The position numbers and the translations under genes are program-made. Source: Magnetococcales bacterium (GTDB lineage: Bacteria; Pseudomonadota; Magnetococcia; Magnetococcales; Magnetaquicoccaceae). From it: a DNA stretch of 64,000 nt. The stretch is taken from positions 62,001 to 126,000 of the forward strand of contig JADGAZ010000014.1 in assembly GCA_015231755.1 (NCBI GenBank), read 5' to 3'. The notes beneath the pieces are model-generated. The model had not been told where the DNA came from and made no database searches. It was given only the letters and a program-made list of their open reading frames with translations. This document shows positions 40,547 through 60,669 of this stretch, in pieces. The first letter of the stretch is position 1. Each line of letters opens with the position of its first letter.

Positions 40547-40580
40547 CCCTTCATCTCCCGAGAAAATGCCATTCTTGACC

Positions 40581-42018: not shown

Positions 42019-42891
42019 TCAGCGCGCGGAGTCCGGGACCAGCAACGTTTCGTCCGGGAACCATTGCAGGCTTTCCCGATAACGCACCACATCGCCGATC
42101 ACCACCACCGCCGGGGGTTGCAGGTCCAACGCGGCCACATCCGCCTCCAGGCGGCCCAAAGTGGAAACCAGGGTCTGTTGCGCGGGGGTGGTGGCCCAGC
42201 GGACCACGGCCACCGGGGTTTCCGGTGAGCGACCGGCGGCGATCAGGCGGCCCACCACCACGGGCAGATTCTGAATCGCCATGTACAGCACCAGCACCGG
42301 AAAAGCCTGGGCCACCGACTCCCAATGGATGCGGGACGAGGGGGAACCTTCCACAAACGACGGGTTTTCCGCCGACTCGTGACCGGTGAGAAACGCCACA
42401 TTGGCGTTCACATCCCGATGGGTGATGGGAATGCCCGCATAGGCCGGACCGGCGATGCCGGAGGTCAAACCCGGAACCACCCGGAAGGGAATGCCTTCCG
42501 CCACCAGACGTTCCGCCTCTTCGCCGCCGCGCCCGAACACAAACGGATCCCCCCCCTTCAGCCGTACCACCCGACGCCCGGCCTTGGCGAGGCGCACCAG
42601 GGTTTCGCTGATATCCTTCTGGCTGGACGAGGGACTGCCCCCGCGTTTGCCGGCGTGGACCCGTTCACAGGATTCCGGGATCAAGTCGAGAATTTCCGGA
42701 GAGACCAAAGCGTCGTGTACCACCACATCGGCGTTGCGGAGGGCTTTCAAGGCGGCGATGGTCAACAAATCCGGATCTCCCGGCCCCGCTCCCACCAGCA
42801 ACACCATGCCCGGCTGGGGATAGGGGCTGGTCAGATCCAGAGGAAGGTCAGTGGCTGGTTCCGGACGAACGATTGATTTTATTGGAGACAT
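42019..42891 (-). CDS. nirE: Uroporphyrinogen-III C-methyltransferase (SUMT)
   Basis: 290 residues. Conserved SUMT blocks: VGAGPGDPDLLTIAALKAL, VHDALVS, AGKRGG, RLKGGDPFVFGRGGEEAE, PGLTSGIAGPAYAGIPITHR. It adds two methyls from SAM to uroporphyrinogen III, giving precorrin-2, the entry to siroheme and heme d1. There is no CysG dehydrogenase/ferrochelatase part, so those steps must come from elsewhere. Its start lies inside the end of nirN (44-bp overlap). The position at the end of the nir block supports nirE rather than cobA. Confidence 0.93.
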   Translation of the reverse strand: MSPIKSIVRPEPATDLPLDLTSPYPQPGMVLLVGAGPGDPDLLTIAALKALRNADVVVHDALVSPEILDLIPESCERVHAGKRGGSPSSSQKDISETLVRLAKAGRRVVRLKGGDPFVFGRGGEEAERLVAEGIPFRVVPGLTSGIAGPAYAGIPITHRDVNANVAFLTGHESAENPSFVEGSPSSRIHWESVAQAFPVLVLYMAIQNLPVVVGRLIAAGRSPETPVAVVRWATTPAQQTLVSTLGRLEADVAALDLQPPAVVVIGDVVRYRESLQWFPDETLLVPDSAR

Positions 42892-44422
42892 TATATTTTC
42901 CCGAGGGTTTCTTCATGGGGAGGCGTTTGACCTCCTCCAGGCTCTTGGCATCGTAGACCACCAGGGCACCATCCATCTCCCAGATGCTCAACAACGCATA
43001 ACGACCATCCCTGGTGAACTCGACATGGGCCGAAGTCTTGCCGGGCGCGGGACGCAAGGTTTTGACGATTTCCAGAGTCTCCTTGTCGATCACATGCACC
43101 GCATCCTTGTTGGGACCGGTAAAGACATCCACCCAGGCATAGGGGGAGTTTTCGTGACTGCGCATGAAAAATCCCGGTCCCAGGGTGGGAATCCTTTTGA
43201 TGGTTTTCCAGGTTTTCAGGTCCACCACCGTGACCTCGCCCTCTTTGATGTTGGGCGTGGCCATCACCTGGGTCTCTTTATAGGGCCAGATGATCCCGGA
43301 TGCCAGATGGGGCATGCCCGCGATGTCGATTTCGGCGATTTTTCGTCCGACATTCAGATTGACCACCTGTCCGGAGGCTCCGGTTCGTGAGGCCCCGATC
43401 AGGTGATGATACTCCTGATCAAAGAAAAAGTCGTCGAGATTCGCCTCCAACTGAATACGCCGCACCGGAAACGGTCCCTTGGCCACCGGCAACGCCTCTC
43501 CGGATGAGGGCTGGAAATCGTGTACCGTCGCGGTATAGATCGGAAGGGCTTTGGCTTTGTCGTTGTACGGAATCTCCCACACCTCCGGCAGATCCTTGAG
43601 GGCGACGATGAACGAATCACGGGGAGCCGCGGTATAGACCGCGCTGGGACGGGCACTGACTCCCTTGTCGTTGACCACAGGAATCTCTTTGACGAAAGAC
43701 AAATCGGCGGCGTCGAGGATCACCAGATTCCGAGGCAGGGTATTGGCCGCCATGACGAAACGCCCGTCTCCGGAGATGGCGACATTGCGGGTATTGACCC
43801 CGACCCGGATTTCGGCGGTCATTTGCAAAGAAAACAGGTCAAAACGGCTGATCCAGCCATCCCGGGAGGCCATGTAGGCGAAACGGCCATCCGGGGAGTA
43901 CTTGATCCCCCCATGCAAGGCGAAACGGGAGGGAAAACGGTGAATCGGTTCCAGGCGGTCGCCGTCCAGCACGGTGACGTGATGATCCCCCAGCTCCACC
44001 ACCATGAACAGATTCATGATATCGGCATGGTGGACCGGCTTGGCTGGCAGGGTCTCATTGGCATGATGGATGACGCGACTCTCCCGGATGGCCGCCGCGT
44101 CCCACACGGGCAGGTTGGCATGGGGGGAGTAGACGAAATCCACCAGGGATTGAATCTCCTCCGGGGAGATTTTTTCGCCAAAGCCGGGCATCTGGGTGGC
44201 GGGGCGACCTTTGGCGATCACCTCGGCGGCCTCTTTTTTGGGAAAGCGTTCGAGATTTTCCGGCAACAGGGCCGGTCCCATGGCGCCAAGGCGGTCGGGA
44301 TGGTGGCACTGGGCACAAAAATGACGATACAGTTCAGGGGCGGGAACGGGGGAAGGATCGGCGGCGTCAGATGAGGCGGAGAGCAGCAGCAACAAAGTCA
44401 AAAACAAACCGGCGCGTTTCAT
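42848..44422 (-). CDS. nirN: Dihydro-heme d1 dehydrogenase NirN
   Basis: 524 residues: signal peptide, an N-terminal c-heme domain with CAQCH and PALLPENLERF, then a C-terminal eight-bladed d1-type beta-propeller similar to that of NirS. In the family, NirN oxidises dihydro-heme d1 by introducing the acrylate double bond, and passes heme d1 to NirS. The c-heme and propeller make it a NirS paralogue, but the N-terminal CAQCHHPDRLGAMGP pattern is NirN-like. Periplasmic. It overlaps nirE by 44 bp. Confidence 0.9.
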   Translation of the reverse strand: MKRAGLFLTLLLLLSASSDAADPSPVPAPELYRHFCAQCHHPDRLGAMGPALLPENLERFPKKEAAEVIAKGRPATQMPGFGEKISPEEIQSLVDFVYSPHANLPVWDAAAIRESRVIHHANETLPAKPVHHADIMNLFMVVELGDHHVTVLDGDRLEPIHRFPSRFALHGGIKYSPDGRFAYMASRDGWISRFDLFSLQMTAEIRVGVNTRNVAISGDGRFVMAANTLPRNLVILDAADLSFVKEIPVVNDKGVSARPSAVYTAAPRDSFIVALKDLPEVWEIPYNDKAKALPIYTATVHDFQPSSGEALPVAKGPFPVRRIQLEANLDDFFFDQEYHHLIGASRTGASGQVVNLNVGRKIAEIDIAGMPHLASGIIWPYKETQVMATPNIKEGEVTVVDLKTWKTIKRIPTLGPGFFMRSHENSPYAWVDVFTGPNKDAVHVIDKETLEIVKTLRPAPGKTSAHVEFTRDGRYALLSIWEMDGALVVYDAKSLEEVKRLPMKKPSGKYNVSNKINRSSGTSH

Positions 44423-44456
44423 GGATCCTCCCCGTGGACAAACACTGTTGAATGCG

Positions 44457-45617
44457 TCATGCCTGACTCTCCGGCGACCGGATCTCCGCGTCGGTCAGAT
44501 AACAGCCCGGATCCTCTTCCCAATGATCCCCGGTGGCCTGATAGGCCCGGACACGGGTATTGCCTCCGCAGATGGCCAGATGATCACACCGCCCGCATCG
44601 TCCCTTGAGGGGTCTGGGTCTGGAGCGCAATCCCGCCAAAACCGGATCCTCCCGGTTGCCCCAGATCTCCCCGAAAGAACGCTGCCCCACATTGCCCAGG
44701 CGATGATGACGCCAGAAAATATCCGGATGGACCTCTCCCAACTCATCGATGTTGGCAATGCCCACCCCGGAGGCGTTGCCACCCCAGCGGGTCAACATCG
44801 CTTCGGCCTGCTCCGCCAGATGGGGCCAGTGACGCCGTACCCAGAACAGAAAAAACACCCCGTCGGCATCGTTGTTGCCGGTGACGATCTCCCGGGAACT
44901 TCCCTGCTCCACATCCGCCCGACTCACCTCGAACAGCCACTCCACCAAACGACGGGTGGCCAGCAGATCGGCATTCTCCTCCCGGTTGACCTTGCCCCGA
45001 CCCGCATGGTTCCAATGAGAGAGATAAAACCGGTCCGTGCCCTCCCGACTCATCAGCTTGAACAGCTCCGGCAGATCCCCCACATTGTCGCGGGTGGGGG
45101 TAAAACGGATCCCCACCTTGACCCCCTGTTCCCGGCAATGGCCGATCCCGGCCACGGAACGCACAAACGCCCCGGACAGGCCCCGCATGCGGTCGTGGTT
45201 TGCTTCCAGACCATCCAGGCTCACCCCGACATAATCAAACCCCGCCGCCGCGATGCGCCCGGCCATGGCCCGATCCATCAACGTGCCGTTGCTGGACAAT
45301 CCCAGATAAAACCCCAGCTCACGGGCATGAGCGGCAATCTCGAACAGGTCCGGACGCAACAGCGGTTCCCCGCCCGACAGGATCAAGGCCGATACCCCAG
45401 AGCGTTTCAAATCCTCCAGAACCCGGCAACAGCTCTCCAGGGTCAACTCGCCGCGAAACGCCCGATCCGACGAGGCGGAATAACAATGGGCGCAGGAGAG
45501 ATTGCAGCGCCGGATCACGTTCCAGACCACCACGGGTCCGTTTTCGACCCGCATCTTCGGACGCTCCCCCGCTGTCGGGGCCAACAGGCGACGCATGAAA
45601 TGGGTCAAGCGGAACAT
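44457..45617 (-). CDS. nirJ: Heme d1 biosynthesis radical SAM protein NirJ
   Basis: 386 residues, ATG with AGGAG 8 bp upstream, 6 bp after the stop of the preceding gene. CxxxCxxC seen as CNLSCAHC, then LILSGGEPLLRPDLF, SSNGTL and VSLDG. C-terminal Cys cluster (CGRCDHLAICGGNTRVRA) is the auxiliary FeS-binding region. NirJ replaces two propionates of 12,18-didecarboxysiroheme by oxo groups. Cytoplasmic. Assignment is firm from motif and operon. Confidence 0.95.
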   Translation of the reverse strand: MFRLTHFMRRLLAPTAGERPKMRVENGPVVVWNVIRRCNLSCAHCYSASSDRAFRGELTLESCCRVLEDLKRSGVSALILSGGEPLLRPDLFEIAAHARELGFYLGLSSNGTLMDRAMAGRIAAAGFDYVGVSLDGLEANHDRMRGLSGAFVRSVAGIGHCREQGVKVGIRFTPTRDNVGDLPELFKLMSREGTDRFYLSHWNHAGRGKVNREENADLLATRRLVEWLFEVSRADVEQGSSREIVTGNNDADGVFFLFWVRRHWPHLAEQAEAMLTRWGGNASGVGIANIDELGEVHPDIFWRHHRLGNVGQRSFGEIWGNREDPVLAGLRSRPRPLKGRCGRCDHLAICGGNTRVRAYQATGDHWEEDPGCYLTDAEIRSPESQA

Positions 45618-45623
45618 CCGTCA

Positions 45624-46616
45624 TCACTCCTGGTTTTTGAGGCGCAAACCGGTTTTCTTGAGAATTCGGGTGCTGTGCAACACCAGATGGCCGTGATCGT
45701 CCTCCCCCAACACCTCCTGCAACAACCGGATCTTGCCTTCCACCGCCCCCCGATCCGCGCCATGCACCATGACGAACAGATTATAGGGCCACGCGGGCAG
45801 ATGACGGGGCCGACGATAACAGTGGGTGACACAATCCAGCACCGCCAGGCGACGCCCCAGCAACGAGACCCGTTCATCCGGCACGTTCCAAACCGACATG
45901 CCGTTGCCTTTGAGTCCCAGACGATAATGATGGGTGGCCACCCCGATCCGACGGATCCAACCCTGACGCAGCATGCGTTCCATCCGTTCCAGCAACACCC
46001 CGACCTCCACCCCCAGGCTCTCCGCCACCGCCGAATAGGGCTCGGGCACCAGGGGCAAACCTTCCTGGGTGGCGGCGATCACCGCCCGGTCCAGGCTGTC
46101 CGGGGAGGTCTCCGCCCAAACCGGATCGATCTTCCGGTCATGAATGGGCCGAGTATCGATGGAACCATCCTCTCCGAGCCGCACTTGAAATCCCAAACGG
46201 TACTCCTCAATCTTGGGCAGATCAAACACCTCCAGCCCGGTCAGGGTGGAAATTCGCGCCAGCACGGTTCCCACCTGCTCTTTTTGTTCCGTGGCCACCA
46301 CGAACCACATGTTCAACGCATGCTCGCGGGCATAATTATGGGCCACTTCGGGTTGGGCGTTCACCAGTTCGGTCACCCGGTCGTACTCTTCCGTCGGCAC
46401 CCGCATGGCCGCCAGGGTCAATCCGCCCCCCATGCGCTCGGCGTTGAAAAACGGTCCAAACCGGGTCAAATACCCGGCGCCCAGCAAGGCGTCGATCCCC
46501 TGGATCAACGCCCCCTCCTTCAGGCCAAGACGCGCCCCGGCCTGGGCAAAAGGACGATCAACCAAAGGAAAACCGGTCTGCAATCCATTGATGATCCGCA
46601 ACGCCTGGGGTTCCAT
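45624..46616 (-). CDS. Siroheme decarboxylase subunits fused (NirG-NirH type)
   Basis: 330 residues from MEPQALRIINGL (a GTG one codon earlier also possible). Two AsnC/Lrp-like halves: the first has EHALNMWFVVATE and LPKIEEYRLGF as in NirD/NirG, the second has LPAWPYNLFVMVHG as in NirL/NirH. These proteins decarboxylate two acetates of siroheme to 12,18-didecarboxysiroheme. With separate NirD-like and NirL-like genes just upstream in the order F-D-L, this fusion takes the NirG and NirH places. Published fusions of this kind are more often NirD-NirL, so the naming is positional. It is cytoplasmic despite the DNA-binding-like fold. Confidence 0.88.
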   Translation of the reverse strand: MEPQALRIINGLQTGFPLVDRPFAQAGARLGLKEGALIQGIDALLGAGYLTRFGPFFNAERMGGGLTLAAMRVPTEEYDRVTELVNAQPEVAHNYAREHALNMWFVVATEQKEQVGTVLARISTLTGLEVFDLPKIEEYRLGFQVRLGEDGSIDTRPIHDRKIDPVWAETSPDSLDRAVIAATQEGLPLVPEPYSAVAESLGVEVGVLLERMERMLRQGWIRRIGVATHHYRLGLKGNGMSVWNVPDERVSLLGRRLAVLDCVTHCYRRPRHLPAWPYNLFVMVHGADRGAVEGKIRLLQEVLGEDDHGHLVLHSTRILKKTGLRLKNQE

Positions 46617-46638
46617 CACCGTTTTCGACCCTTCTTCG

Positions 46639-47124
46639 TCAAGAGGCAACCTGGAAATAACGGGCACCGCATTGCTTGAATCGACGCCGACTGAACAACA
46701 CCTCCCGGGCATAGGGGGTGAGGCCACAGCTTGCGGTGAGTTGTTCGGCCCGTTGCAGGGTTTCTTCCCGCTCCCGTCCGTGAATCATGCAATACAGGTT
46801 GTACGGCCACTCCGGCAGACAGCGCCGCCGCAGATAACACAACGATACCAGATCACAGGCCCGAATCCGGGCGCCGATCTCGCACACCACCGCATCGGGC
46901 ACATCCCACACCACCATGGCGTTGGCGGCAAACCCCAACTCGTGATGATGCACCACCACCCCCACCCGCTTGATGATGCCCTGATTCTGCAAGTCCCGCA
47001 GGCCGTCGATCACCTGCGACTCCTCCAGGCCGATGGTCTCCCCCATGGTCTGAAACGGACGGGGTACCAGGGGAAACCCGTTTTGAAAAGCGGCGATCAG
47101 TTGTTGTTCCGATTCGTTCAACAT
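46639..47124 (-). CDS. nirL: Siroheme decarboxylase subunit, NirL-like
   Basis: 161 residues, AsnC/Lrp-like winged helix plus a RAM-like fold. ERPF-type N-terminus (GFPLVPRPFQTM), VGVVVHHHELGF, LPEWPYNLYCMIHG, and a C-terminal RRFKQCGARYF characteristic of NirL/NirH. It is separate from the NirD-like gene by 3 bp and is very likely its partner subunit. NirL and NirH are hard to tell apart; the operon order F-D-L decides the name. Confidence 0.85.
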   Translation of the reverse strand: MLNESEQQLIAAFQNGFPLVPRPFQTMGETIGLEESQVIDGLRDLQNQGIIKRVGVVVHHHELGFAANAMVVWDVPDAVVCEIGARIRACDLVSLCYLRRRCLPEWPYNLYCMIHGREREETLQRAEQLTASCGLTPYAREVLFSRRRFKQCGARYFQVAS

Positions 47125-47127
47125 GGT

Positions 47128-47586
47128 TCACCCGTGCATCCGAAAGCCCAGATCGATGTGAAATTCCTCTTCCATGGGCATGGCGCACACCGCAAGGCCG
47201 GTGCGCGTGCCGATCGCGTCGATCACCCCGGCCAGATGGGCCGCATCCCGCGCCGTGAGGACAAACCATAGATTAAAGGCGTGTTCCCGTTCGTAGTTGT
47301 GGTTGACCTCCTGGAAACCGTTCACCACCTCCGCCACCTCTTCCAGCCGTTCCGGCGGGACACGCATGGCCGCCAGGGTACTGACCCCCACCCGACGGGC
47401 GCGCAACACCACCCCCACCCGACTGATGGATCCCGACTCTTGCAAGCGGCGCAACCGTTCCAGCACCTCCTCTTCGGAAATGCCGAGGCGTTTGGCCATG
47501 GCGAGATAGGGCCGCTCTTCCAGCGGAAAATCCCGCTGAAACTCATCGAGCAACCGGTGATCCAGGGAGGTCGGGTCGTGTTCCAT
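47128..47586 (-). CDS. nirD: Siroheme decarboxylase subunit, NirD-like
   Basis: 152 residues from MEHDPTSLDHRLL, starting 8 bp after the nirF stop; the long frame reaching back to 48009 runs antisense-like through nirF in another frame and is not real. N-terminal winged helix (LLDEFQRDFPLEERPY), then VSTLAAMRVPPERL, NHNYEREHAFNLWFVLTA and a final HIDLGF, as in NirD/NirG. It acts with NirL in siroheme decarboxylation. The ribosome binding site is weak, suggesting coupling to nirF. Confidence 0.87.
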   Translation of the reverse strand: MEHDPTSLDHRLLDEFQRDFPLEERPYLAMAKRLGISEEEVLERLRRLQESGSISRVGVVLRARRVGVSTLAAMRVPPERLEEVAEVVNGFQEVNHNYEREHAFNLWFVLTARDAAHLAGVIDAIGTRTGLAVCAMPMEEEFHIDLGFRMHG

Positions 47587-47594
47587 GGCTGTGG

Positions 47595-48800
47595 TCACAG
47601 TCCGATCTTGTGGGCCCGGGAGGTGAAGAAAATCCCGCTGGGCTTGGTGGCGGGCAAAGTGGCGATGCGTTCGAACGAATGGGTATGGAACACATCCACC
47701 CGATCCGAGTCCCGTACCGACAACCAAATATGCTCGCCCCGGGGGGTGAACTCCATGTGCATGACCCCCGGTCCCGGGGTCAACGTCCGGACCACCTGAC
47801 GGGTAGGCACATCGATCACCTGCACCTTGCCATTCTCCGGATGAGCGAAATTGACCCAGATCTGTCGCCCGTCGGGCTTGGCCATCACGAATACCGGCTG
47901 ACCCGCCACCGGCACACGCCCCACCTCGCGCCACTCGGCCCGATCCACGATCAACACCTCGTGCCGCCCCATGGCCGGCAGAAACACCAGATCCTCGGTC
48001 ATGCCCCACCCTTCCAGATGGGGCATTTTATAGACAGCCGTGCGTTTTTCCCCGTGGCCGTAGTCTTTGAGAATGCGTTTGACCCCGGCTTCCGGATGCC
48101 ACAGATCCAGCAAGGCGAAACCGTCATCCCCGAACAGTCCGGCGATGTAGTGACGCCCATCCGGAGAGATCAAGGCGTCGTAGGGCTTGCTGCCGATGCC
48201 GGTGAATTTGGTGATTTTCGGCTTGGCCGGATCGTTCAAGTCCGCGATCCAGATTTCGTCGGAATCGAACAGGCTGAAGACAAATCGTTGCTCGGTGGAG
48301 TCTTCCAGCCCCACCACCTTGGAGGTGCGACCCTGGGCGTCCACAGCCGGGATATCCGCCACCTGGACCAGGGTTTCGGTATCGAACACCCGCACCCCAC
48401 CGGGTTGATAGTTGGCCACCGCCACCAGACGTCCATCCTGGGAGATGGCGCCGCCGATGCTGTTTCCGGCCTGCATCACCCGCCCGGCCAGTTGACCGGT
48501 GAGCAGATCCACCTTGCTCAATCCCCCGTCGCGGCCAAAGACAAAGGCAAAACGTCCATCCCGGGAGTAGACCACCGAAGCGTGGGAGAGATCCCCCAAC
48601 CCCTCCACCCGGGACAAAACCGTCTTGCCCGTGGTTTCCACCACCTCGACGCTGCCCGTGGCCCGTTCGATCACCACCCCCATGTCCCCCACGCCACGGG
48701 GAGCGGCGCACCCTTGCAGCAGCGGCCAGGACAGACAGGCCACCAGCAACCACGGATGACCCGAACGGGACGGACTCCGCCACCATGCCACGGATTTCAT
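47595..48800 (-). CDS. nirF: Heme d1 biosynthesis protein NirF
   Basis: 401 residues; ATG overlaps the nirC stop (ATGA). Signal peptide ends in a lipobox (LLQGC), so probably a periplasmic lipoprotein. The rest is an eight-bladed d1-type beta-propeller related to NirS but without the c-heme domain. NirF is needed for a late step of heme d1 formation before NirN. The C-terminal LPATKPSGIFFTSRAHKIGL is typical. Full length. Confidence 0.93.
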   Translation of the reverse strand: MKSVAWWRSPSRSGHPWLLVACLSWPLLQGCAAPRGVGDMGVVIERATGSVEVVETTGKTVLSRVEGLGDLSHASVVYSRDGRFAFVFGRDGGLSKVDLLTGQLAGRVMQAGNSIGGAISQDGRLVAVANYQPGGVRVFDTETLVQVADIPAVDAQGRTSKVVGLEDSTEQRFVFSLFDSDEIWIADLNDPAKPKITKFTGIGSKPYDALISPDGRHYIAGLFGDDGFALLDLWHPEAGVKRILKDYGHGEKRTAVYKMPHLEGWGMTEDLVFLPAMGRHEVLIVDRAEWREVGRVPVAGQPVFVMAKPDGRQIWVNFAHPENGKVQVIDVPTRQVVRTLTPGPGVMHMEFTPRGEHIWLSVRDSDRVDVFHTHSFERIATLPATKPSGIFFTSRAHKIGL

Positions 48801-49144
48801 GGGATATCTCCTTTCTGCAATCGCTCCACCAGCCAACGGATCTCCGCACGGGTCAACAACCCCTCCCAGGGGGGCATGGCCCGTTCCGGCAATCCAAAAT
48901 AGATCATATTTTCCAACACATCCGGGGATTTGTCGATCAGGTTTTCAGGCAGCAGGGGCGGTCCCAGTCCCCCTTTCAGGGTCATGCCGTGGCAGGAGCC
49001 ACAATCGTGGCGCAACAGATGGACCAGTTGACGTTGCCGTTCCGGCGTCACTTCCGCACAGACCGCTCCGGCACCGGACAGCAGCAATAAAATGGCTGAA
49101 AAATAAATAAAAACAATCTGAAAGGTGGAACCTTGAGCAGGCAT
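48797..49144 (-). CDS. nirC: Cytochrome c NirC
   Basis: 115 residues from the ATG at 49144 (a TTG just upstream is less likely; GGAG 9 bp ahead). Signal peptide, then CGSCH heme site followed by GGLGPPLLPENL and an axial Met in ERAMPPWEG. NirC is a small periplasmic monoheme cytochrome of nir operons that can donate electrons to NirS or to d1 maturation. It is first of the block nirC-F-D-L-GH-J-N-E, and is coupled to nirF. Confidence 0.9.
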   Translation of the reverse strand: MPAQGSTFQIVFIYFSAILLLLSGAGAVCAEVTPERQRQLVHLLRHDCGSCHGMTLKGGLGPPLLPENLIDKSPDVLENMIYFGLPERAMPPWEGLLTRAEIRWLVERLQKGDIP

Positions 49145-49251
49145 CAAACCGTCACTCCATTCCTTTGTTTCAACGATTGAGCGTTATTGAATGTCAATTC
49201 CCTCGTTTTTCCGTCTCTTTAAAGAGTGCGGCGTGATGACTAAGAAAATGA

Positions 49252-49320: not shown

Positions 49321-51036
<1,716 letters not shown>

Positions 51037-51063: not shown

Positions 51064-51077
51064 TTGACCCAAATCAA
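51064..51077. promoter_or_regulatory. FNR/DNR-type dyad, nirS-proximal
   Basis: TTGA-CCCAAA-TCAA, centre 51070.5. On the minus strand a CATGAT -10-like hexamer at 51036-51041 follows, giving a predicted nirS start near 51029 with the dyad centred about 41 bp upstream, the classic class II activator position. Confidence 0.7.
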
Positions 51078-51104: not shown

Positions 51105-51118
51105 TTGACTTGCGTCAA
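51105..51118. promoter_or_regulatory. FNR/DNR-type dyad, central
   Basis: TTGA-CTTGCG-TCAA, in full TTGAC-TTGC-GTCAA, with symmetric outer bases, centre 51111.5; 41 bp from the nirS-proximal dyad. Confidence 0.65.
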
Positions 51119-51144: not shown

Positions 51145-51158
51145 TTGATTTGGATCAA
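51145..51158. promoter_or_regulatory. FNR/DNR-type dyad, distal
   Basis: TTGAT-TTGG-ATCAA, the canonical FNR consensus, centre 51151.5, 40 bp from the central dyad and 120 bp before the + gene at 51278. It could serve nirS cooperatively or the divergent small gene. No convincing -10 lies 35 bp downstream on the + side. Confidence 0.7.
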
Positions 51159-51277
51159 TTCTCTTGTATGTTCCAGTTGTCTTGCGCGCATGACGGTTGA
51201 TCCGCGTCCACCAGGTGCGGTATCCTCGTCAAAATTCAAGAAGCGCTACCAAACAAATTCAGGAGGAGTTCAGAAAA

Positions 51278-51526
51278 ATGGAACTGGTCTATTTCACGAT
51301 CATCGGCGGAGCGCTCTATCTGCTGTCGGAGCGGATTCTGAATCGCATCGAGGAGAGACGGGGGGCGAGACTGCCTTATCGGTCCGTGATCTTTTTTGTG
51401 ATCATTTTCAGCTTGAGCATGTTCACGTTTTCGGTGATGCGCGCCGTGACCAACCCCCCGCAGGAACCCCCCGCGGCGAGCGGTCAGGACGCGACACCAA
51501 CCCAACCTTCCAAACCCGCTAATTGA
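51278..51526 (+). CDS. Small two-TM membrane protein divergent from nirS
   Basis: 82 residues from an ATG preceded by AGGAGG (about 10 bp spacing). Two hydrophobic helices (about 3-20 and 41-60) joined by a basic loop (RIEERRGARLPYR); the C-terminal tail is Pro/Ala-rich. No recognised family. Its placement downstream of the FNR-type dyads and convergent 8-bp overlap with the neighbouring membrane-protein gene suggest a role in nitrite respiration, but nothing in the sequence shows it. Confidence 0.7.
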   Translation: MELVYFTIIGGALYLLSERILNRIEERRGARLPYRSVIFFVIIFSLSMFTFSVMRAVTNPPQEPPAASGQDATPTQPSKPAN

Positions 51527-52025
51527 TGACAAAGTTGTCCTTGCTCTCATCGAAGCCGATCAGGATCCCCTGACCCGGGATCCAATCCCGCATCACCTCT
51601 TCGACATAATCGAATCCCTCGGCACGGACCCGATCCCGCATGCGCACCGTGAGTTTGTGTCGACCGGCGGGCAGAGAAAACTTGGCATAGATATGGGTGG
51701 CCATATCCTTACTCAAACCCGGCGGAATGAAGGTGCGGGTAGCCAGGAAATGATCGTCGAGCAACAATTCGATGTAGATCGACGCCCGTTTGCGGGGACA
51801 ATCCTGGGGCTTGCGCATGTTGGGCGGCAGTTTCAGCAACTCTTCATCGGTACGCTTGTGACACTCCTGCTCGCGCTGGGAGGTGTGCTTGAAGGCCAGT
51901 TTCACCTCCGCCTGATCCGGCTTGAGATAATGATAAGCCGGCGCGCTGGAAAGAAAAAAGATCACCACAAAAAACAAGGTATACGCGGCGAGTTGAATCC
52001 CGAACTCCTGGAATGATCTGGGCAT
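51519..52025 (-). CDS. Single-TM periplasmic-type protein, unknown
   Basis: 168 residues from the ATG at 52025 with AGGAG 7 bp upstream (a GTG at 52046 is the alternative). One N-terminal TM helix, then a soluble domain with two Cys (in QECHKR and QDCPRK) and a beta-rich end (AGRHKLTVRMRDRVRAEGFDY). Probably anchored in the inner membrane facing the periplasm, where the Cys pair could form a disulfide. Starts 17 bp after the cytochrome b fusion, so likely co-transcribed. Family unknown to me, though the segment looks conserved. Confidence 0.7.
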   Translation of the reverse strand: MPRSFQEFGIQLAAYTLFFVVIFFLSSAPAYHYLKPDQAEVKLAFKHTSQREQECHKRTDEELLKLPPNMRKPQDCPRKRASIYIELLLDDHFLATRTFIPPGLSKDMATHIYAKFSLPAGRHKLTVRMRDRVRAEGFDYVEEVMRDWIPGQGILIGFDESKDNFVIN

Positions 52026-52042
52026 CTGGACACTCCTTGTCT

Positions 52043-53566
52043 TCACGCTGAAGGGGATAACGAACGACGGAACGCTTCCAGGCGTTGTTGCAACGCCTTC
52101 CGCTCGCCGGAGGAGTCGGAAACCCGGAACTCCACCACCCGTGTGCGATCGACCCGTTTCAACAGTTGGGGTTCACGCGCCCCGGAGAGCCGTTGCTCGG
52201 TCCAGGTGTTGCCGAAACGATGGTAACAATCCCCATCCCGGCAACCGGTGACCAAAACCCCTTCCGCACCATTTTTTAGCACATAATCCAGCATCGAGGG
52301 GGGCAGCATGCCGCTACAGGGCAAGGAGACCACCGCCACCCCGGGATCCTTCAAAGTGGTCACATCCATGCCATGCTCACACCCGAACACCATCACCCGA
52401 CCCGCGCCGGACAACGCTCCCAGTTTGCTTTTGACCTCCTGACGCAGGGCGTCCACCGTGAACCAGGGCATTTCGATGCCGGTTTTCAAGGTGGCATTGG
52501 CCATGCGGAACGGACTGGACGAGACACAAGAACCGCTGCAAATGCCGCAGGCCGTACACAGGGTGGGATTGACCGTAGGCTCGAATTCGGACTTCTTGCC
52601 ATCGGTGCGCCGCCGCATGGAGATGGATCCATAGGGGCAATCCTGGGCGCACTGACCACAACCGTTGCAGTGTTCGAGATTGACCTCGGCGGCGGGTTGT
52701 TCTTTTTTGGAGGGCAACCAGGGCAACATCAGCAGCAGCGCCGTGACCCCGGTGGAGATCCCCCACGCCCAACCCGGCCCCATCCCATCCATCAAAGGGT
52801 AGATATTGAGATAAAACCAGTCCAGATTCAGCACCATCGGCGAATGGCCCGCTTGCACCGGGGCATGGCTGACCGCCGGCTTGAGCAGCGACAAAACCAG
52901 CAAGGTCAAGAAGGCTCCGGTGGCCAGAGGCCGGGGGGGATTGAAATCGATCTGACTGATACGGCTCACATGGGTCCACAACAAAAACACCAAGGCGACC
53001 GGCAATCCCAACAGATGCAAAAACGCCATCAGGGTGAAAAAGCGGTCGGTGATCTGATTGTCCAGGAAATTGAACACCATGGCACTGGGAATCATGGGGA
53101 TCCAGTCCACCATTTCCGCCGTGGCCAGGGCTACATACTGGGCCAACTGATCCCACACCAACCAATAACCCGTAATCCCCAGAATCACCACCAGCCACAG
53201 AGTCGGCACCCCGGTGATCCACGAAAACCACCGCACCCCCCGGTGATGATCCCGAAAAAACTCCCGAAACATGTGGAGAAAAATCGAAATCACCGCCGCA
53301 TCCGAGGCATAGCGGTGCAGACTACGCATGATGCCCGCCAACCACCACTGATCGTGGGTCATGTACTCCACTGACGGATAGGCGCCAGCCACGCTGGTTT
53401 CAAAAAAAATGAACACATAGATGCCGGAAACCAGGACAACCCAAAAGAAAAAGAATGTCAAAGAGCCAAGATGATAGAAGGGATTGAGACGATTCGGAAA
53501 CCCCTTGTTAAACAAAAGTTCAACAGATAGTATTATATTGTTACCAATTTTGCGCACGGCTTCCAT
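52043..53566 (-). CDS. Cytochrome b / 2[4Fe-4S] ferredoxin / MvhD-type fusion
   Basis: 507 residues from MEAVRKIGNNI, ATG with GGGAGG 8 bp upstream. About 1-290: cytochrome b/b6-like membrane domain with two bis-His heme pairs (SLHRYASDAAVISIFLHM, 13 residues between; HLLGLPVALVFLLWTH, 14 between). About 300-370: two ferredoxin sites (CNGCGQCAQDCP and CTACGICSGSC). About 390-507: MvhD/FlpD-like domain (VFGCEHG, CRDGDCYHRFG), normally the small subunit that links hydrogenase or formate dehydrogenase to heterodisulfide reductase. The architecture implies electron transfer between cytoplasmic low-potential carriers and the membrane quinone/heme chain. It would be a natural donor arm for periplasmic nitrite reduction, but its partner is unknown. 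Confidence 0.85.
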   Translation of the reverse strand: MEAVRKIGNNIILSVELLFNKGFPNRLNPFYHLGSLTFFFFWVVLVSGIYVFIFFETSVAGAYPSVEYMTHDQWWLAGIMRSLHRYASDAAVISIFLHMFREFFRDHHRGVRWFSWITGVPTLWLVVILGITGYWLVWDQLAQYVALATAEMVDWIPMIPSAMVFNFLDNQITDRFFTLMAFLHLLGLPVALVFLLWTHVSRISQIDFNPPRPLATGAFLTLLVLSLLKPAVSHAPVQAGHSPMVLNLDWFYLNIYPLMDGMGPGWAWGISTGVTALLLMLPWLPSKKEQPAAEVNLEHCNGCGQCAQDCPYGSISMRRRTDGKKSEFEPTVNPTLCTACGICSGSCVSSSPFRMANATLKTGIEMPWFTVDALRQEVKSKLGALSGAGRVMVFGCEHGMDVTTLKDPGVAVVSLPCSGMLPPSMLDYVLKNGAEGVLVTGCRDGDCYHRFGNTWTEQRLSGAREPQLLKRVDRTRVVEFRVSDSSGERKALQQRLEAFRRSLSPSA

Positions 53567-53849: not shown

Positions 53850-54542
53850 ATGTTTCAACGCATCAAACAGGACATCGAGGTCATCTTCCAGCGGGATCCC
53901 GCAGCCAATGGGGTGTTGGAGGTTCTGCTGTGTTATCCCGGTCTGCACGCCATTCTGGGGTATCGCCTGTTTCACTGGTTGTGGCTCAAGAATTTCCGTC
54001 TGCTGGCACGATTCCTTTCCAATCTGACCCGCTTTCTGACCGGCATCGAGATTCATCCGGCAGCCAAAATCGGCGCGCGTTTCTTCATCGACCACGGCAT
54101 GGGGGTGGTCATCGGCGAGACCACCGAAATCGGTGACGATGTCACCCTCTACCATGGGGTCACCCTGGGGGGAACCAGTTGGAAGGCAGGCAAGCGTCAC
54201 CCCACTCTGGACAATGGCGTGGTGGTGGGAGCCGGCGCGAAAATCCTCGGTCCGATCACCATCGGGGCCAATGCCCGGGTGGGATCCAACGCGGTGGTGG
54301 TGAGCGACGTGCCCGCCGATACCACGGTGGTGGGAATCCCAGGACGTCTGGTGATGCCCAAATTCAAATCCCCTCCCTCCACGGAAAAGACCTTCTCCTC
54401 CTACGGTCAGAATGGCGTCATGGTGGATCCGGTGGCCAAGGCGGTCTCCTGTCTGCTTGACCAGGTGCGCCACCTGGATGACCGGGTCAAAAAACTGGAA
54501 CACGAAGAGTCCACATCAGGCACACCCAAGGAGAGACCATGA
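53850..54542 (+). CDS. cysE: Serine O-acetyltransferase
   Basis: 230 residues from [17 protein letters not shown] upstream; the 24 extra residues of the longer frame are not conserved. N-terminal helical part, then a left-handed beta-helix with [41 protein letters not shown] containing the catalytic His. It makes O-acetyl-L-serine, the acceptor for cysteine synthesis. Positioned first in the isc operon, which ties cysteine supply to cluster assembly. Overlaps iscR by ATGA. Confidence 0.95.
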
Positions 54543-54991
54543 AACTCACCACCAAGGGACGCTACGCCGTGACGGCCATGCTGGATCTGTGTTGCCAGGA
54601 GACCGAAACCCCGGTCGCACTCATCGACATTTCCAAAAGACAGGAGATCTCCCTGTCCTATCTGGAACAACTCTTCGCCAAGCTCAGACGCCGGGGATTG
54701 GTGCGCAGCGTGCGGGGTCCGGGGGGTGGATATCTGCTGGTGGCCTCTCCCTCCACCATCAGCATCGCCGACATCATCCGCGCCGTGGATGAACCCATCC
54801 AGGCCACCTCCTGTGACGAAAGCGATCCGGAAGGGTGCCGTAAATCGACTCGTTGCATCACCCATCACCTTTGGGAACGGGTGGGGATCCATATCAACAG
54901 CTATCTGGAATCGATCCATCTGGGCAGCCTCATCGAGGAGATCCGCTCCGGCTCGTTGGCGACTCCCGGCGGTCACGGTTTCTCCCCATGA
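54539..54991 (+). CDS. iscR: Rrf2-family iron-sulfur regulator IscR
   Basis: 150 residues: N-terminal winged helix ([47 protein letters not shown]) and three Cys in [17 protein letters not shown], spaced as the [2Fe-2S] ligands of IscR. Holo-IscR represses isc genes in known systems; the operon here is probably autoregulated. ATGA junctions on both sides (cysE and the desulfurase) point to tight translational coupling. Confidence 0.94.
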
Positions 54992-56133
54992 TCTACCTGG
55001 ACCACAACGCTACCTCCCCCACCCGACCCGAAGTGGCGGAGGCCATGCTCGCCACCCTGACCCGACAAGAGGGCAATCCCTCCTCGGTGCATGGGCCGGG
55101 CCGGGCCGCCCGACAGACTCTCGACGAGGCCCGGCGGGCCGTGGCCAGACTGGTGAATGTTCACGACAGCCGGGTGATCTTCACCAGCGGCGGCACCGAG
55201 GCCAACCATCTGGCCATTCTGGGAATGGCGGAACAGGCGGAATTCCAGGGCACCCTAATCACCAGTGCGGTGGAACATCCTTCGGTGCTGATGCCCTGTG
55301 ACAAAGCCGGCCAGCGGGGCATGACGGTGATCCACCTGCCGGTGGACGCCTCCGGACGGATCCATCCGGACCGGCTCAAAACCGCCCTGACCCTGGATAC
55401 CCGACTGGTCTCCATCATGGCGGCCAACAACGAAACCGGAGTGCTGCAACCGGTGGCGGAGATCGGCGCCTTGTGCCGCGCCGCTGGAGTGCCCTTTCAT
55501 TGCGACGCCACCCAGTATGCCGGCAAACTGCCCCTTCAGGCTGACGGGATCCAGGCGGACCTGCTCACCTTGTCGGCCCACAAACTGGGCGGCCCGAAAG
55601 GGTGCGGCGCCCTGATCGTCGGTCCGGCGGTCCAACTCACGCCCCAACTGCTCGGCGGCGGACAGGAACGCAACCGTCGCTCGGGCACGGAAAATCTCCC
55701 CGGCATCGCCGGCTTCGGCGCGGTCGCCCAACTGGTCGCCCCCCGCATCGAAGCGGAATCCCTCGCCCTCACCGCCCTGCGGCAAAAACTGGAAGAGGGA
55801 CTATTGAAAAGTGTTCCCGATGCCGTCATCCTGGGCGCGCAGGCTCCCCGACTGCCCAACACCACCGCCCTGGCCCTGCCCGGCGTGGACGGGGAGACCC
55901 TGGTGATGACCCTGGATCTGGCCGGTTTCGCCATCAGCAGTGGCGCAGCCTGCTCGTCTGGAAAAAACACCCCGTCCCATGTTCCTCTGGCCATGGGGCT
56001 GGATCACGCATTGACCCGAAGCGTGACGCGGATCAGTCTGGGATGGGACTCGACCGAACACGCCGTGGATCGTTTCATCCATGCATTCCACCGGTCCGTG
56101 GACCGTTTGCGCAAAGGGAGCCATTTCGCATGA
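54988..56133 (+). CDS. Cysteine desulfurase, NifS-like (first of two)
   Basis: 381 residues from [18 protein letters not shown] with iscR. PLP lysine in [10 protein letters not shown] and catalytic Cys in [16 protein letters not shown]; the His of VEHPSV is present. A class I desulfurase, but less IscS-like than its neighbour (short N-terminus, no long C-terminal tail). It removes sulfur from cysteine as a persulfide. Two desulfurases in one isc operon is unusual; this one may serve another acceptor such as a thiolase, tRNA enzyme or metal cofactor. Confidence 0.92.
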
Positions 56134-57341
56134 ACAAACCCATTTACATGGATTATCAGGCCACAACACCGGTGGATCCCCGGGTGATGGAGGCCATGCT
56201 GCCCTGGTTCGTGGAACGATTCGGCAATCCCGCCTCCCGTTCCCACGCCTATGGCTGGGAGGCGGATGCCGCCATCACCACCGCCAGAAAACAGGTGGCC
56301 AGCGTGATCAAGGCCGATCCCCGGGAGATCGTCTTCACCTCCGGAGCCACGGAGTCGGACAATCTGGCCATCTGGGGCGTGGCGCAGTTCTACCGGGACA
56401 AGGGCAATCACATCATCACCCCCACCACCGAACACAAGGCGGTGCTGGATACCTGTCGTCATCTGGAATCCGAAGGGTTCGAGATCACCTATCTGCCGGT
56501 GCAAACCAACGGATTGGTGGATCTGGCCCAACTGGAAGCCGCCATTACCCCCAAGACCATCCTGGTATCGATCATGGCGGTCAACAATGAAGTCGGGGTG
56601 ATTCAGCCTCTGGAGGCGATCGGTCGGCTGTGTCGTCAGAAGAAGGTCTTCTTCCACTGCGACGCCGCCCAGGGAGTCGGCAAGATCCCCATCGACGTGA
56701 ACGCGATGAATATCGATCTGCTCTCCATCTCCGCCCACAAACTCTATGGACCCAAGGGAGTCGGCGCCCTGTATGTGCGTCGTCAACCCCGTGTGCGCCT
56801 CAAGGCGATCATGCACGGCGGCGGACACGAACGGGGCATGCGCTCCGGCACCCTGCCCACCCCTTTGCTGGTGGGACTGGGAGAGGCGTGCCGTATCGCC
56901 GAAGAGGAAATGACCGCCGAAAATTCCCGCCTGCTGCTGCTGCGGGAACGACTCAGAAACGGCATCATGAGCCAGTTGACCCATGTGGCTCTCAATGGCG
57001 ATGCCGAAGCCCGGGTGGCGGGCAATCTCAACATTTCTTTCAGCTACGTGGAAGGGGAATCCTTGATGATGGCCATCAAGGATGTGGCGGTCTCTTCGGG
57101 ATCGGCCTGCACCTCGGCCTCTCTGGAGCCTTCTTACGTGCTGCGGGCCATGGGAGTCAACGAAGAGATGGCCCACACCTCGATCCGGTTCGGCCTGGGT
57201 CGTTTCACCACCGCAGAAGAGGTGGATCACGTCATCCGCATCGTGGTGGGAGCCGTGAACAAATTGCGCGAAATGTCGCCGTTGTGGGAAATGGTACAAG
57301 AGGGCATCGATCCCCATACCCTGCAATGGGCAGCACATTAA
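56130..57341 (+). CDS. iscS: Cysteine desulfurase IscS
   Basis: 403 residues from [22 protein letters not shown] overlapping the previous stop (ATGA) with GGGAG upstream. Typical Isc[19 protein letters not shown] (PLP Lys), [19 protein letters not shown] (catalytic Cys), and an extended C-terminus ending near [10 protein letters not shown]. It supplies sulfur to IscU directly downstream. The long upstream frame beginning at 55602 lies inside the neighbouring gene in another frame and is not coding. Confidence 0.96.
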
Positions 57342-57381
57342 TCAAGATACCGTCCCTGGAACGAGGATTGGAGAAACCCAA

Positions 57382-57768
57382 ATGGCATACAATGAGAAAG
57401 TGCTCGATCACTACGAAAATCCCCGCAACGTGGGCAGTCTGGACAAACAAGACGCCCAGGTGGGAACCGGCATGGTGGGTGCCCCGGCCTGCGGCGACGT
57501 GATGAAACTGCAAATCCGCGTCAACGAAGACGGCGTCATCGACGACGCCAAATTCAAGACCTTCGGCTGCGGATCGGCCATCGCCGCCTCTTCCCTGGTG
57601 ACCGAATGGGTCAAGGGCAAGACCATCGACGAAGCCCTGGCCATCAAAAACCAGGAGATCGCCGATGAACTGGCTCTGCCCCCGGTCAAGATCCACTGTT
57701 CGGTGCTGGCCGAAGACGCGATCAAATCCGCCGTGGCCGACTATCGCAGCAAGCAAAAAGGAGCCTGA
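57382..57768 (+). CDS. iscU: Iron-sulfur cluster scaffold IscU
   Basis: 128 residues, MAYNEKVLDHYENPRNVGS start. The three cluster-binding Cys lie in GAPACGDV, TFGCGSA and IHCSVLAE; the HscA-binding LPPVK motif is present. Scaffold on which IscS-derived sulfur and iron form [2Fe-2S] clusters. Normal size and order after iscS. Confidence 0.97.
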   Translation: MAYNEKVLDHYENPRNVGSLDKQDAQVGTGMVGAPACGDVMKLQIRVNEDGVIDDAKFKTFGCGSAIAASSLVTEWVKGKTIDEALAIKNQEIADELALPPVKIHCSVLAEDAIKSAVADYRSKQKGA

Positions 57769-57773
57769 AAACC

Positions 57774-58115
57774 ATGACCACCGCAGCACAAGGCATCTCC
57801 CTGACCGAACGGGCCGCCCGTCAGGCCAAAAGCATGCTCGCCAAACGGGGTACGCCGGATGGAGCCATCCGCCTCGGCACCACCACGGCGGGCTGCTCGG
57901 GGTTTTCCTACAAGTTGGAATACGCCGATCAGGTGGAAGACGGAGATCAGGTGTATGAATCGTTCGGCGTCAGGGTGGTGCTCGACGGCAAGTCGGCGTT
58001 GCTCCTGGATGGCACCCTGGTGGATTTCGAGTCCTCGCCGTTCAAGTCCGGCTTCAAGTTCAGCAATCCCAAGGAGAAGGAACGCTGCGGTTGCGGCGAG
58101 TCCTTCAAGGTGTGA
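57774..58115 (+). CDS. iscA: A-type iron-sulfur carrier IscA
   Basis: 113 residues. Three conserved Cys in TTAGCSGFSY and CGCG near the C-terminus. Carries or repairs clusters for apoproteins. Begins 5 bp after iscU; its TGA overlaps the hscB start by one base (TGATG). Confidence 0.95.
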   Translation: MTTAAQGISLTERAARQAKSMLAKRGTPDGAIRLGTTTAGCSGFSYKLEYADQVEDGDQVYESFGVRVVLDGKSALLLDGTLVDFESSPFKSGFKFSNPKEKERCGCGESFKV

Positions 58116-58771
58116 TGAACCCGATACCACCTCATCTCCATTCCCAGGCGTGCTGGTCCTGCCGGGGTCCCACTCCGGCAGGACTCTTCTGCACCACCTG
58201 CAACGCCCTGCTCCCTCCGGACATAGGCGCGAACCGTTTTGCCCTGTTCGGCCTGGAACCATCCTACGAGCCGGATACCACCATCCTGGAAAAAAACCAT
58301 CGGGCCTTGCAAAAGCAGTTGCATCCGGATTTCTTCGCCCAACGCGGCCCCACGGAACGGCGTCTCTCCCTGGAATGGACCACCCGTCTCAACGAAGCTT
58401 GGCAGACCCTGACCGATCCCGTGGCCCGGGCCACCTATCTGCTGGAGATGCGGGGGTGGAAACCCACCGGGCGTCCCGCGTTGGATCCGGAGTTTCTGGA
58501 AGAGGTGATGACGCTTCGGGAAACTTTGGAAGAGGTGAATCCCCTGGCCCCGGACGCCCTGCCAAAACTGGCCGCTCTGAAAACCACCGCCCGTGGACGC
58601 CTGAAAGACGAAGAAAACCAGATCGCCCAATCATTCCGCGCCCATGGGCAACACCCGTCAGCCGACGCCCTGGGAGAGATCGCCCGTCTGGTGGACCGGA
58701 TGCGTTATCACCGGCGCTACCTGGAAGAACTGGATCGCCTGGAGGATCGGGCCTTTGATCAAGACGCATAG
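58115..58771 (+). CDS. hscB: J-protein co-chaperone HscB with N-terminal tetracysteine motif
   Basis: 218 residues from [16 protein letters not shown]. Cys at 13, 16, 26 and 29 (CxxC-9-CxxC) form a probable zinc knuckle, as in eukaryotic HSC20. Then a J domain with HPD in [10 protein letters not shown], and the C-terminal three-helix bundle that binds IscU. It stimulates HscA ATPase and recruits IscU. Most bacterial HscB proteins lack the Cys motif, so the N-terminus is the feature of interest. TGATG overlap with iscA. Confidence 0.92.
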
Positions 58772-58785
58772 GAGATGACATCCCC

Positions 58786-60669
58786 ATGGACGTATTGCTG
58801 GAGATCGCAGAGCCGGGTCAATCCCTCCTCCCCCACCAGACCGGACCCGGCAGCCGCAAACGGGTGGTCGGAATTGATTTAGGGACCACCTTTTCCCTGG
58901 TCGCCGCCATCGGTCTGGAGGGGAAGCCTCTGTGCATTCCCGATGACGACGGGGTGTGCGCGGTGCCCTCCGTGGTCCACTATGGGGCCAATCACACCAT
59001 TCGGGTGGGACAGGCGGCGCGGGAGATGGCCTTGAGTCATCCCGAATCCACCATCGCCTCGGTCAAGCGTTACATGGGACGGGGTGTGGAGGATATCCGC
59101 GCCCGCATGGCCACCATCCCCCACGGCCTGGAAGCCGGTGAAGGCGGCATGGTGCGGATTCTGGCCGGAGAAGCCAACGTCTCGCCGGTGGAAGTCTCGG
59201 CGGAAATCCTCAAACTCCTCAAGAAACGGGCCGAAGAGGCCCTCGGCGGCTCCCTGCAAGGAGCGGTGATCACGGTTCCCGCCTATTTCGACGACGCACA
59301 GCGTCAGGCCACCAAGGACGCGGCGCGGGTGGCCGGTCTGGAGGTATTGCGTCTGCTCAACGAACCCACAGCCGCCGCTTTGGCCTATGGCCTGGACAAG
59401 GGCAGCGAAGGGCTGTACGCGATTTATGATCTGGGAGGGGGCACGTTCGACATCTCGTTGCTGAAACTGGAAAAAGAGCTGTTCCAGGTGATGGCGACCG
59501 GTGGAGACTCGGCCCTGGGGGGTGATGATCTGGATCAGTGGATCGTGCAGCGCATCATGACCGAAACCGGCGTGAACGATCCGGATCCGGGCTGGATCCA
59601 GGCCTGCCGCAAGATCGCCAGAGAAGTGAAAGAAGAACTGTCGGACGCCAATGCGGTGACCTTTCCCCTGCCCGGCTCTGCAACCGGTCAGACGGGACAC
59701 ATCACCCGGGAGGCGTTCGATAGCGGCGTTCGCGATTTGATCTGGCGGACCATTCCGATCTGTCGCCGGGTGCTCAAGGATGCGGGGGTGGCCCCGGAGG
59801 CGCTGCAAGGGGTGGTGCTGGTGGGTGGTTCGACCCGGGTGCCGCTGGTCCGCCAGATGGTGGCGGAGTTTTTTGGTCGGGAACCGCTGGTGGATCTGGA
59901 TCCGGATCAGGTGGTGGCTCTGGGCGCGGCCCATCAGGCGGAAGCGTTGGCGGGCAATGCCCCGGCGGAGATGCTGCTGCTGGATGTCACGCCGTTGTCT
60001 TTGGGGATCGAGACCATGGGGGATCTGATGGAACGGATCGTCCCCCGCAACGCCCCCATCCCCACGGCCCGGGCCCAGGAGTTCACCACCTTCAAGGATG
60101 GTCAGACCGCCATGGCCATTCACGTGGTGCAGGGCGAACGGGAACTGGCCAGTCAATGCCGCTCGTTGGCCCGGTTCGAGTTGCGGGGCATTCCCCCCAT
60201 GACCGCGGGAGCGGCCCGGATTCGCGTCACCTATCAGGTGGACGCGGATGGATTGCTGACCGTCTCGGCCCGTGAGGAGACCACGGGGGTCGAACAATCG
60301 ATCACGGTCAAGCCCTCTTACGGATTGACGGACGACGAAATCGCCAACATGCTGCAAGAAGCCATGCAGCATGGAGAGGCGGACATGCTGGCCCGTCTGT
60401 TCAACGAGGCCAAGGTGGAGGCGGATCGGGTACTGGCCGCCGCCGGTTCGGCCTTGCGGGAAGACGGAGATCTGTTGAATGACGACGAATTGAAACAGGT
60501 CAAGGGGGCGATGCTGGCGCTCTGGGAGACGACTCAGGGGAAATCAGCCGACGCCATCAATGACCGGATCCAGAAAATGGATACCCAAACCCGCTTCTTC
60601 GCGCAGCGGCGCATGGACCGGAGCCTGAAACAGGCCATGACCGGTCGCAAGGTGGATGATTTCGAATGA
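58786..60669 (+). CDS. hscA: Hsp70-type chaperone HscA
   Basis: 627 residues: Hsp70 nucleotide-binding domain ([42 protein letters not shown]) and a substrate-binding domain with a helical lid. HscA binds the LPPVK motif of IscU and drives cluster release. The ORF ends at 60669, followed closely by fdx. Slightly long N-terminal extension (about 25 residues) before the first beta-strand. Confidence 0.96.

Follow-up and report, generated by a model that had tools for sequence, protein, structure and literature searches.

A cytochrome b fused to a ferredoxin and an FlpD domain, encoded at positions 52043–53566 of the window (the whole 64,000-nucleotide stretch of contig JADGAZ010000014.1 that was analysed), very probably belongs to the proteobacterial operon of eNOR, which, judging from its active-site and copper-binding motifs, is a two-subunit heme-copper nitric oxide (NO) reductase. 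We lean towards the fuller reading that the fusion, conserved as part of this operon, acts in the membrane as an accessory oxidoreductase that supplies electrons. The operon would run in the order subunit II, subunit I, heme O synthase, SCO1, cytochrome b/ferredoxin/FlpD fusion and a small gene that we term orf175, often with the addition of a CuB-less oxidase homologue. Judging by gene order, the cytochrome b/orf175 pair is split from the eNOR core in the genus of the window and placed beside nirS.

The fusion gene is a single unbroken minus-strand frame of 507 aa, read from 53566 to 52043, with GGGAGG preceding its ATG. Its product comprises a cytochrome b (residues 20–290), a 2[4Fe-4S] ferredoxin (293–350) and an FlpD/MvhD domain (395–500), as recognised by Pfam (Cytochrome_B, 2.6e-18; FlpD, 9.1e-14; Fer4, 4.6e-9; Fer4_7, 1e-7), the FlpD part scoring 52 bits for PF02662 against a gathering score of 22.3. 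No model of the CcoG membrane polyferredoxin family matched it in Pfam or among the NCBIfam matches listed (25 of 29). Conservation was assessed in an alignment (A2) of 49 rows, made up of the window protein and 48 sequences selected from 82 cytochrome b matches. All sixteen predicted cofactor ligands were invariant among the 49 aligned relatives: the heme-ligating histidines H84/H98 and H184/H199 (separated by 13 and 14 residues, respectively), which form the two pairs of heme b ligands that characterise bc1/b6f cytochromes b (49/49), the ferredoxin cysteines 300, 303, 306, 310, 337, 340, 343 and 347 (49/49), and the FlpD cysteines 396, 417, 442 and 447 (49/49). The three-domain architecture described in the earlier note, with all histidine and cysteine ligands in one 507-residue chain, was thus upheld, and the concern that the frame might be a mis-assembly of two genes was put to rest by the same fused frame in 27 further genomes of the class and by 80 named loci from other assemblies, which matched mostly over their full length.

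The AlphaFold model of the fusion (mean pLDDT 89) superimposed on bc1 cytochrome b over residues 24–289 (VIA Z 24.4, rmsd 3.0, 261 aligned). Residues 151–294, searched alone against solved structures, returned no match, and the quinol-site motif was therefore placed by hhalign against the bc1 cytochrome b of the same genome, the PEWY of which aligned with L-D-W-F-Y of the fusion. Where bc1 and b6f cytochromes b carry PEWY for quinol oxidation, the fusion carries a conserved DW(F/Y)Y, of which D249 and W250 were invariant (49/49 rows of A2) and around which the model was weakest (block means of 60–80). The four heme histidines and the bc1-like core are shared with bc1/b6f cytochrome b, as is a WD motif that sits where PWGQ/PWDQ aligns; the DW(F/Y)Y motif and the fused ferredoxin and FlpD set the fusion apart, and neither a Rieske protein nor a cytochrome c1/f was present among its recurrent neighbours, whether Pfam-annotated or mapped. 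Sequence and model together give the membrane domain the appearance of a complete bc-type core, more than a b6-like half, in which the motif for quinol oxidation is altered.

The FlpD domain shares PF02662 with the MvhD/FlpD of Mvh–Hdr complexes, and the solved chains that it matched are of the MvhD/VhuD type; unlike the MvhD of those complexes, it is membrane-bound through its fusion to cytochrome b. No hydrogenase, formate dehydrogenase or HdrA/Hdr genes were found among the recurrent neighbours of the fusion, these neighbours being eNOR genes. The usual role ascribed to MvhD in the earlier note, as a link from soluble hydrogenase or formate dehydrogenase to heterodisulfide reductase, proved an incomplete account, as the window's own genome encodes, on another contig (locus L180, G000:C9, 5589–9076, minus strand), an HdrA-like flavoprotein with a C-terminal FlpD-like domain beside a second flavoprotein, a pair that we take to be QmoAB-like. 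QmoABC combines an FlpD-like domain and a membrane cytochrome b in one quinone-linked system with separate flavoproteins. The fusion likewise joins an FlpD-like domain with a membrane cytochrome b, and differs in that the HdrA-like candidate is coded separately in the same genome.

Within the window, the fusion gene overlaps by 4 bp with orf175 (51519–52046, minus strand), the product of which is predicted to have one N-terminal transmembrane helix and an Ig-like beta sandwich (AF2 pLDDT 95) with a C62/C83 pair and a conserved H54. This gene was directly downstream of the fusion in 28/28 loci of the class (L001, L004–L030) and present in 63 of the 64 non-Magnetococcales loci with at least 700 bp of downstream sequence. 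Both cysteines were present in 128 of 131 rows and both were changed in the other three, which are of the Mariprofundaceae type, two of them being one record seen twice. No Pfam family matched orf175, Cox11 included; its best structural match was HGSNAT (VIA Z 9.1, rmsd 2.6, 95 aligned), and no Cox11 chain was among the 50 matches listed, which does not count against such a fold. A second small membrane ORF, orf101 (about 51221–51526, plus strand), had no Pfam match and had homologues in 33/68 non-Magnetococcales loci. Beyond it lie nirS, coding for cytochrome cd1 nitrite reductase (49321–51018, minus strand; PF02239, 1.5e-151), and the rest of the nir cluster (42848–49147, minus strand), comprising nirC, nirF, siroheme decarboxylase genes, a nirJ-like radical SAM gene and a gene for a nirN-like d1 protein. 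The placing of nirS and two small ORFs next to the fusion, as first noted, was confirmed. Between nirS and orf101, an FNR/Crp-type box, TTGATTTGGATCAA, matched exactly at 51145–51158 (plus strand), accompanied by near matches at 51064–51077 (one mismatch), 51105–51118 (two) and 51197–51210 (two); since the pattern was over-represented across the whole window (59 matches against 24.7 expected), only the exact box of this gap was counted. A CtaA/COX15 heme A synthase gene is present at 39497–40738 (minus strand; PF02628, 2.5e-106), homologues of which are often immediately upstream of the eNOR genes in relatives. Two further features of the surroundings were observed. A tetrapyrrole methylase gene (42019–42891, minus strand) adjoins the nir cluster and is a candidate nirE, a gene reported missing in Ca. 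Magnetaquicoccus inordinatus UR-1 in the available part of its description (PMC6783814). Directly upstream of the fusion, at 53850–60669, are cysE, iscR, two iscS-like genes, iscU and further isc/hsc-type genes (the names other than cysE being those that we presume), an arrangement conserved in the genus, in which the fusion–orf175 pair adjoins cysE–isc and, in members such as G000 (the window's own), G030, G033 and G036, also nirS.

The gene order of relatives associates the fusion with eNOR. A search of 48 genomes of the class recovered the fused protein in 28, and in several of these a two-subunit heme-copper enzyme, a UbiA-type heme O synthase and SCO1 precede it. Named loci were taken as the best 80 of 564 confirmed matches (12 from Magnetococcales and 68 from others); they were picked by similarity to the fusion. 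Their non-Magnetococcales hosts include Thioalkalivibrio denitrificans, Parabeggiatoa, Thiogranum, Woeseiaceae, Rhodospirillales, Mariprofundaceae, Polaromonas and Gallionellaceae. The eNOR subunit I was upstream of the fusion in 46 of the 49 non-Magnetococcales loci with at least 3 kb of upstream sequence, SCO1 was present in 59/62 with at least 1 kb, and the three loci without subunit I (L138, L146 and L169) had it elsewhere in the genome (G417, G424 and G443). Where at least 8 kb was available on both sides (n = 26), subunit I was nearby in 24 loci and nirS in 12. On a complete Defluviimonas plasmid, subunit II, subunit I, cyoE, SCO, the fusion and orf175 are followed by a hemerythrin gene in a compact run in which several adjacent genes overlap, and nirS was not found within 12 kb on either side. 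Across the 48 genomes of the class, the fusion and subunit I occurred together in 25, the fusion alone in three, subunit I alone in one and neither in 19; in the sole genome with subunit I alone (G015), the contig ends right after SCO1. Sixteen genomes were re-searched for subunit I, and six gave none: in G403, G407, G421 and G009 the contig is cut within the operon upstream of the fusion, and for G035 (77% complete) and G026 (96%, about 730 contigs) missing sequence is the only explanation, if any. As a separate observation, Thioalkalivibrio denitrificans and Mariprofundaceae-type genomes (L141, L063, L064) contain the fusion twice, in tandem or close together, and the orf175 cysteine pair is absent from the Mariprofundaceae-type ones.

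Given that the named loci had been selected on the fusion, the reverse test was anchored on subunit I, which was found in 23 of 300 genomes of the order to which G365 belongs; 20 loci were uncut downstream, and L213, L216 and L217 were left out on account of contig ends. A cytochrome b of the fusion's family, orf175 and the CuB-less homologue were each present in 20/20. Thirteen of these loci held two types of this cytochrome b, five the ferredoxin–FlpD type only, and two only a paralogue in which, by Pfam, Fer2, FAD-binding and NAD-binding domains stand in place of the ferredoxin–FlpD part. Such plant-type 2Fe-2S/FAD/NAD fusions to cytochrome b were seen in eNOR operons at L067:10639-12618, L167, L169, L174 and L178. 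The exchange suggests that the ferredoxin–FlpD and NAD(P) reductase parts are interchangeable cytosolic electron ports. The CuB-less homologue, a COX1-superfamily protein of about 455 aa, is encoded at L184 (G000:C16:860-2194), L067:7126-8556 and L064:11490-12866, among others; it keeps H65, H342 and H344 (heme), H212 (helix-VI-type) and H389 in 27/27 rows and has no conserved HH pair for CuB in those rows. We rejected it as a strict partner of eNOR, because it was matched (1e-20) in 40 of the 48 genomes of the class, including 13 without the fusion, and is thus not eNOR-specific in the class.

The identity of the heme-copper enzyme was examined in 60 subunit I frames, 14 of which are fragments or have wrong starts and do not cover the active site; the motif GH[SA]SQQ[IV]N was present in 46/46 of the frames that do. 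Among solved structures, subunit I was nearest to B-type ba3 oxidases, and its Gln aligned with the cross-linking Tyr of the ba3 oxidase. In the available portion of PMC8756737, an active-site Gln marks eNOR and an Asn marks sNOR. The cupredoxin subunit by which eNOR is recognised is likewise present, subunit II carrying the CuA motif C-x-E-x-C-x3-H-x2-M in 47/48. Our first guess from the SenC-containing gene order, an sNOR (an enzyme whose role towards NO is debated, according to an excerpt of PMC6967387), was rejected because Gln, and not the Asn expected of sNOR, occupies the Tyr position. Homologues of subunit I on Thermus and Thermomicrobium plasmids (42–44% identity) carry GHGAQQVN and so share the active-site Gln, whereas their loci have only subunit II and subunit I side by side, with heme O synthase also in Thermomicrobium, and neither the fusion, orf175 nor SCO1 adjoined them; in Proteobacteria the operon has, in addition, SCO1, the cytochrome b fusion, orf175 and often the CuB-less homologue. 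On Thermus thermophilus pTF24b (L222), nirS and the eNOR-like subunits, which are annotated as a ba3-type oxidase, were observed within about 7 kb of each other.

The fusion likely serves as an electron link between a carrier in the cytosol and the membrane's periplasmic half. Electrons from a low-potential cytosolic carrier would enter at FlpD/ferredoxin or, in the paralogue, by way of NAD(P)H, FAD and 2Fe-2S; hemes bH and bL would then relay them across the membrane to the periplasmic side, where they would exit either at the modified quinone pocket or to orf175 and keep eNOR supplied or reduced, such that NO from NirS or NirK could be removed even if the usual supply through cytochrome c becomes limiting. 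That the cytosolic end is an entry port is argued from the substitution of an NAD(P)H-reductase module for ferredoxin–FlpD in the same operon, and the conserved quinol-site-like motif would speak for turnover or a quinone role. Several points count against electron supply. Subunit II has CuA and should take electrons from cytochrome c, so a second input has no obvious need; neither a Rieske protein nor a c-type cytochrome is a recurrent member of the operon; the export of electrons from cytosol to periplasm would be paid for in membrane potential, something unusual in a respiratory step; and the thermophile plasmid loci have no such module next to them, which is thus not needed for eNOR catalysis everywhere.

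A role in maturation is a possible, though to us doubtful, alternative: the fusion and orf175 may reduce copper, or the thiols of SCO1/CuA, on the periplasmic side during eNOR assembly, a task that falls to the cupric reductase CcoG and the chaperone Cox11 in the case of other heme-copper oxidases. Apart from the eNOR subunits and the CuB-less homologue, the recurrent neighbours all serve assembly (heme O synthase, SCO1, CtaA); in thermophiles, the eNOR loci without SCO1 are also without the fusion; and the single transmembrane helix, Ig-like sandwich and cysteine pair of orf175 constitute the layout described for Cox11 in the available text of PMC7558416. Membrane reductases in support of heme-copper oxidases have precedents in CcoG and CrpH, the copper-reductase role of the latter being a proposed one in the part of PMC13038864 at hand. 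With CcoG/Cox11 the operon shares an Fe-S membrane reductase and a one-helix Ig-fold protein encoded with a heme-copper enzyme, but no sequence relation was found, orf175 having no Pfam match to Cox11, and the fusion has a cytochrome b core, a feature unmentioned for CcoG in the excerpt of PMC7558416. The joint change of both orf175 cysteines in Mariprofundaceae is as expected of a disulphide and argues against a copper site, and the quinol-site-like motif and full bc1-type core of the fusion exceed what a copper reductase needs.

An improbable alternative is a Rieske-less bc-type complex that oxidises quinol at the DW(F/Y)Y pocket and splits the electrons, one passing to the eNOR side and the other, by way of the b hemes, to ferredoxin or NAD(P)+. 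The retained quinol-site motif and the exchangeable ferredoxin–FlpD and NAD(P) ports are in its favour, as is the proposal, in the accessible text of PMC12954380, that Rieske/cytochrome b complexes make NAD(P)H in Kuenenia. These complexes share with the operon a cytochrome b and a cytosolic NAD(P) module (here in the paralogue), but they have a Rieske protein and multiheme cytochromes c, none of which recurs in the eNOR operon; no Rieske or other high-potential partner does, and PEWY is altered. It is improbable that the cytochrome b of this operon is a quinone-based bifurcator in which the fall of one electron to NO lifts the other to ferredoxin or NAD(P)+; were it one, NO respiration would directly yield low-potential electrons, for example for CO2 fixation.

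The second option of the earlier note, that the fusion carries electrons from a cytosolic reductant directly to NirS, is highly improbable, since although the fusion adjoins nirS in this genus and several other Magnetococcia and co-occurs with it at the genome level, nirS is next to the fusion/orf175 in a minority of loci and eNOR in nearly all, and the module is also present in nirK genomes and in one genome (G008) without nirS or nirK. The proposed link to denitrification held in that genomes with the fusion nearly always have nirS; the direct tie to NirS did not, as eNOR adjoins the fusion more often, and a NirS partnership as the main link was rejected on gene order and co-occurrence, gene order largely refuting it. 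In the class, the fusion and nirS occurred together in 24 genomes, the fusion alone in four, nirS alone in two and neither in 18. Of the named genomes whose fetched locus had no nirS, 38/50 (50 of 52 eligible) had it elsewhere, and nirK scored above its curated cut-off in three of the 12 named fusion genomes without nirS at 1e-60. Among the loci anchored on eNOR, 3/20 had nirS nearby, and 22/23 of the genomes (18/18 of those of good quality) had it somewhere. Fusion homologues in genomes lacking nirS and denitrification, which had been named as evidence that would count against the tie, were partly found: besides the three nirK genomes just mentioned, G008 (99% complete) encodes the fusion together with eNOR and has no match to nirS or nirK. 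The genome-level association between the fusion and nirS is strong, yet it fits an NO producer accompanied by its NO reductase.

The eNOR core of the window's own genome is on another contig (C9:97-102 kb). A search with PF00115 recovered eNOR, one A-type enzyme (SHPAVY), one cbb3-like enzyme (GHNAVG) and one CuB-less homologue, and found no cNOR or qNOR, so that, within this superfamily, eNOR alone is a candidate NO reductase to accompany nirS. In the available part of its description, UR-1 has nirS and nosZ and no norBC, with NO reduction left open, and WMHbinv6 also has no norBC (PMC6783814). Both genomes (G020 and G022) encode an eNOR subunit I with GHSSQQIN and also the fusion, and the nirS contig of UR-1, RXIU01000046 (L109), carries the fusion and orf175. 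On these motifs, eNOR is a candidate for the missing NO-reduction step in UR-1 and WMHbinv6.

We found no description in the literature of the fusion within an eNOR operon, a prior account in the 2024 PNAS paper on NO-reductase diversity being possible; an appendix table in the accessible portion of PMC8756737 lists, uncommented, a protein with cytochrome b6, DMSOR-beta-like and FlpD domains. The little-studied proteobacterial eNOR thus appears to have a transmembrane electron module of its own, by which eNOR operons may be recognised. Its presence suggests how some denitrifying magnetotactic bacteria cope without a standard NO reductase, and surveys limited to norBC or qNOR would overlook eNOR as a candidate NO sink.
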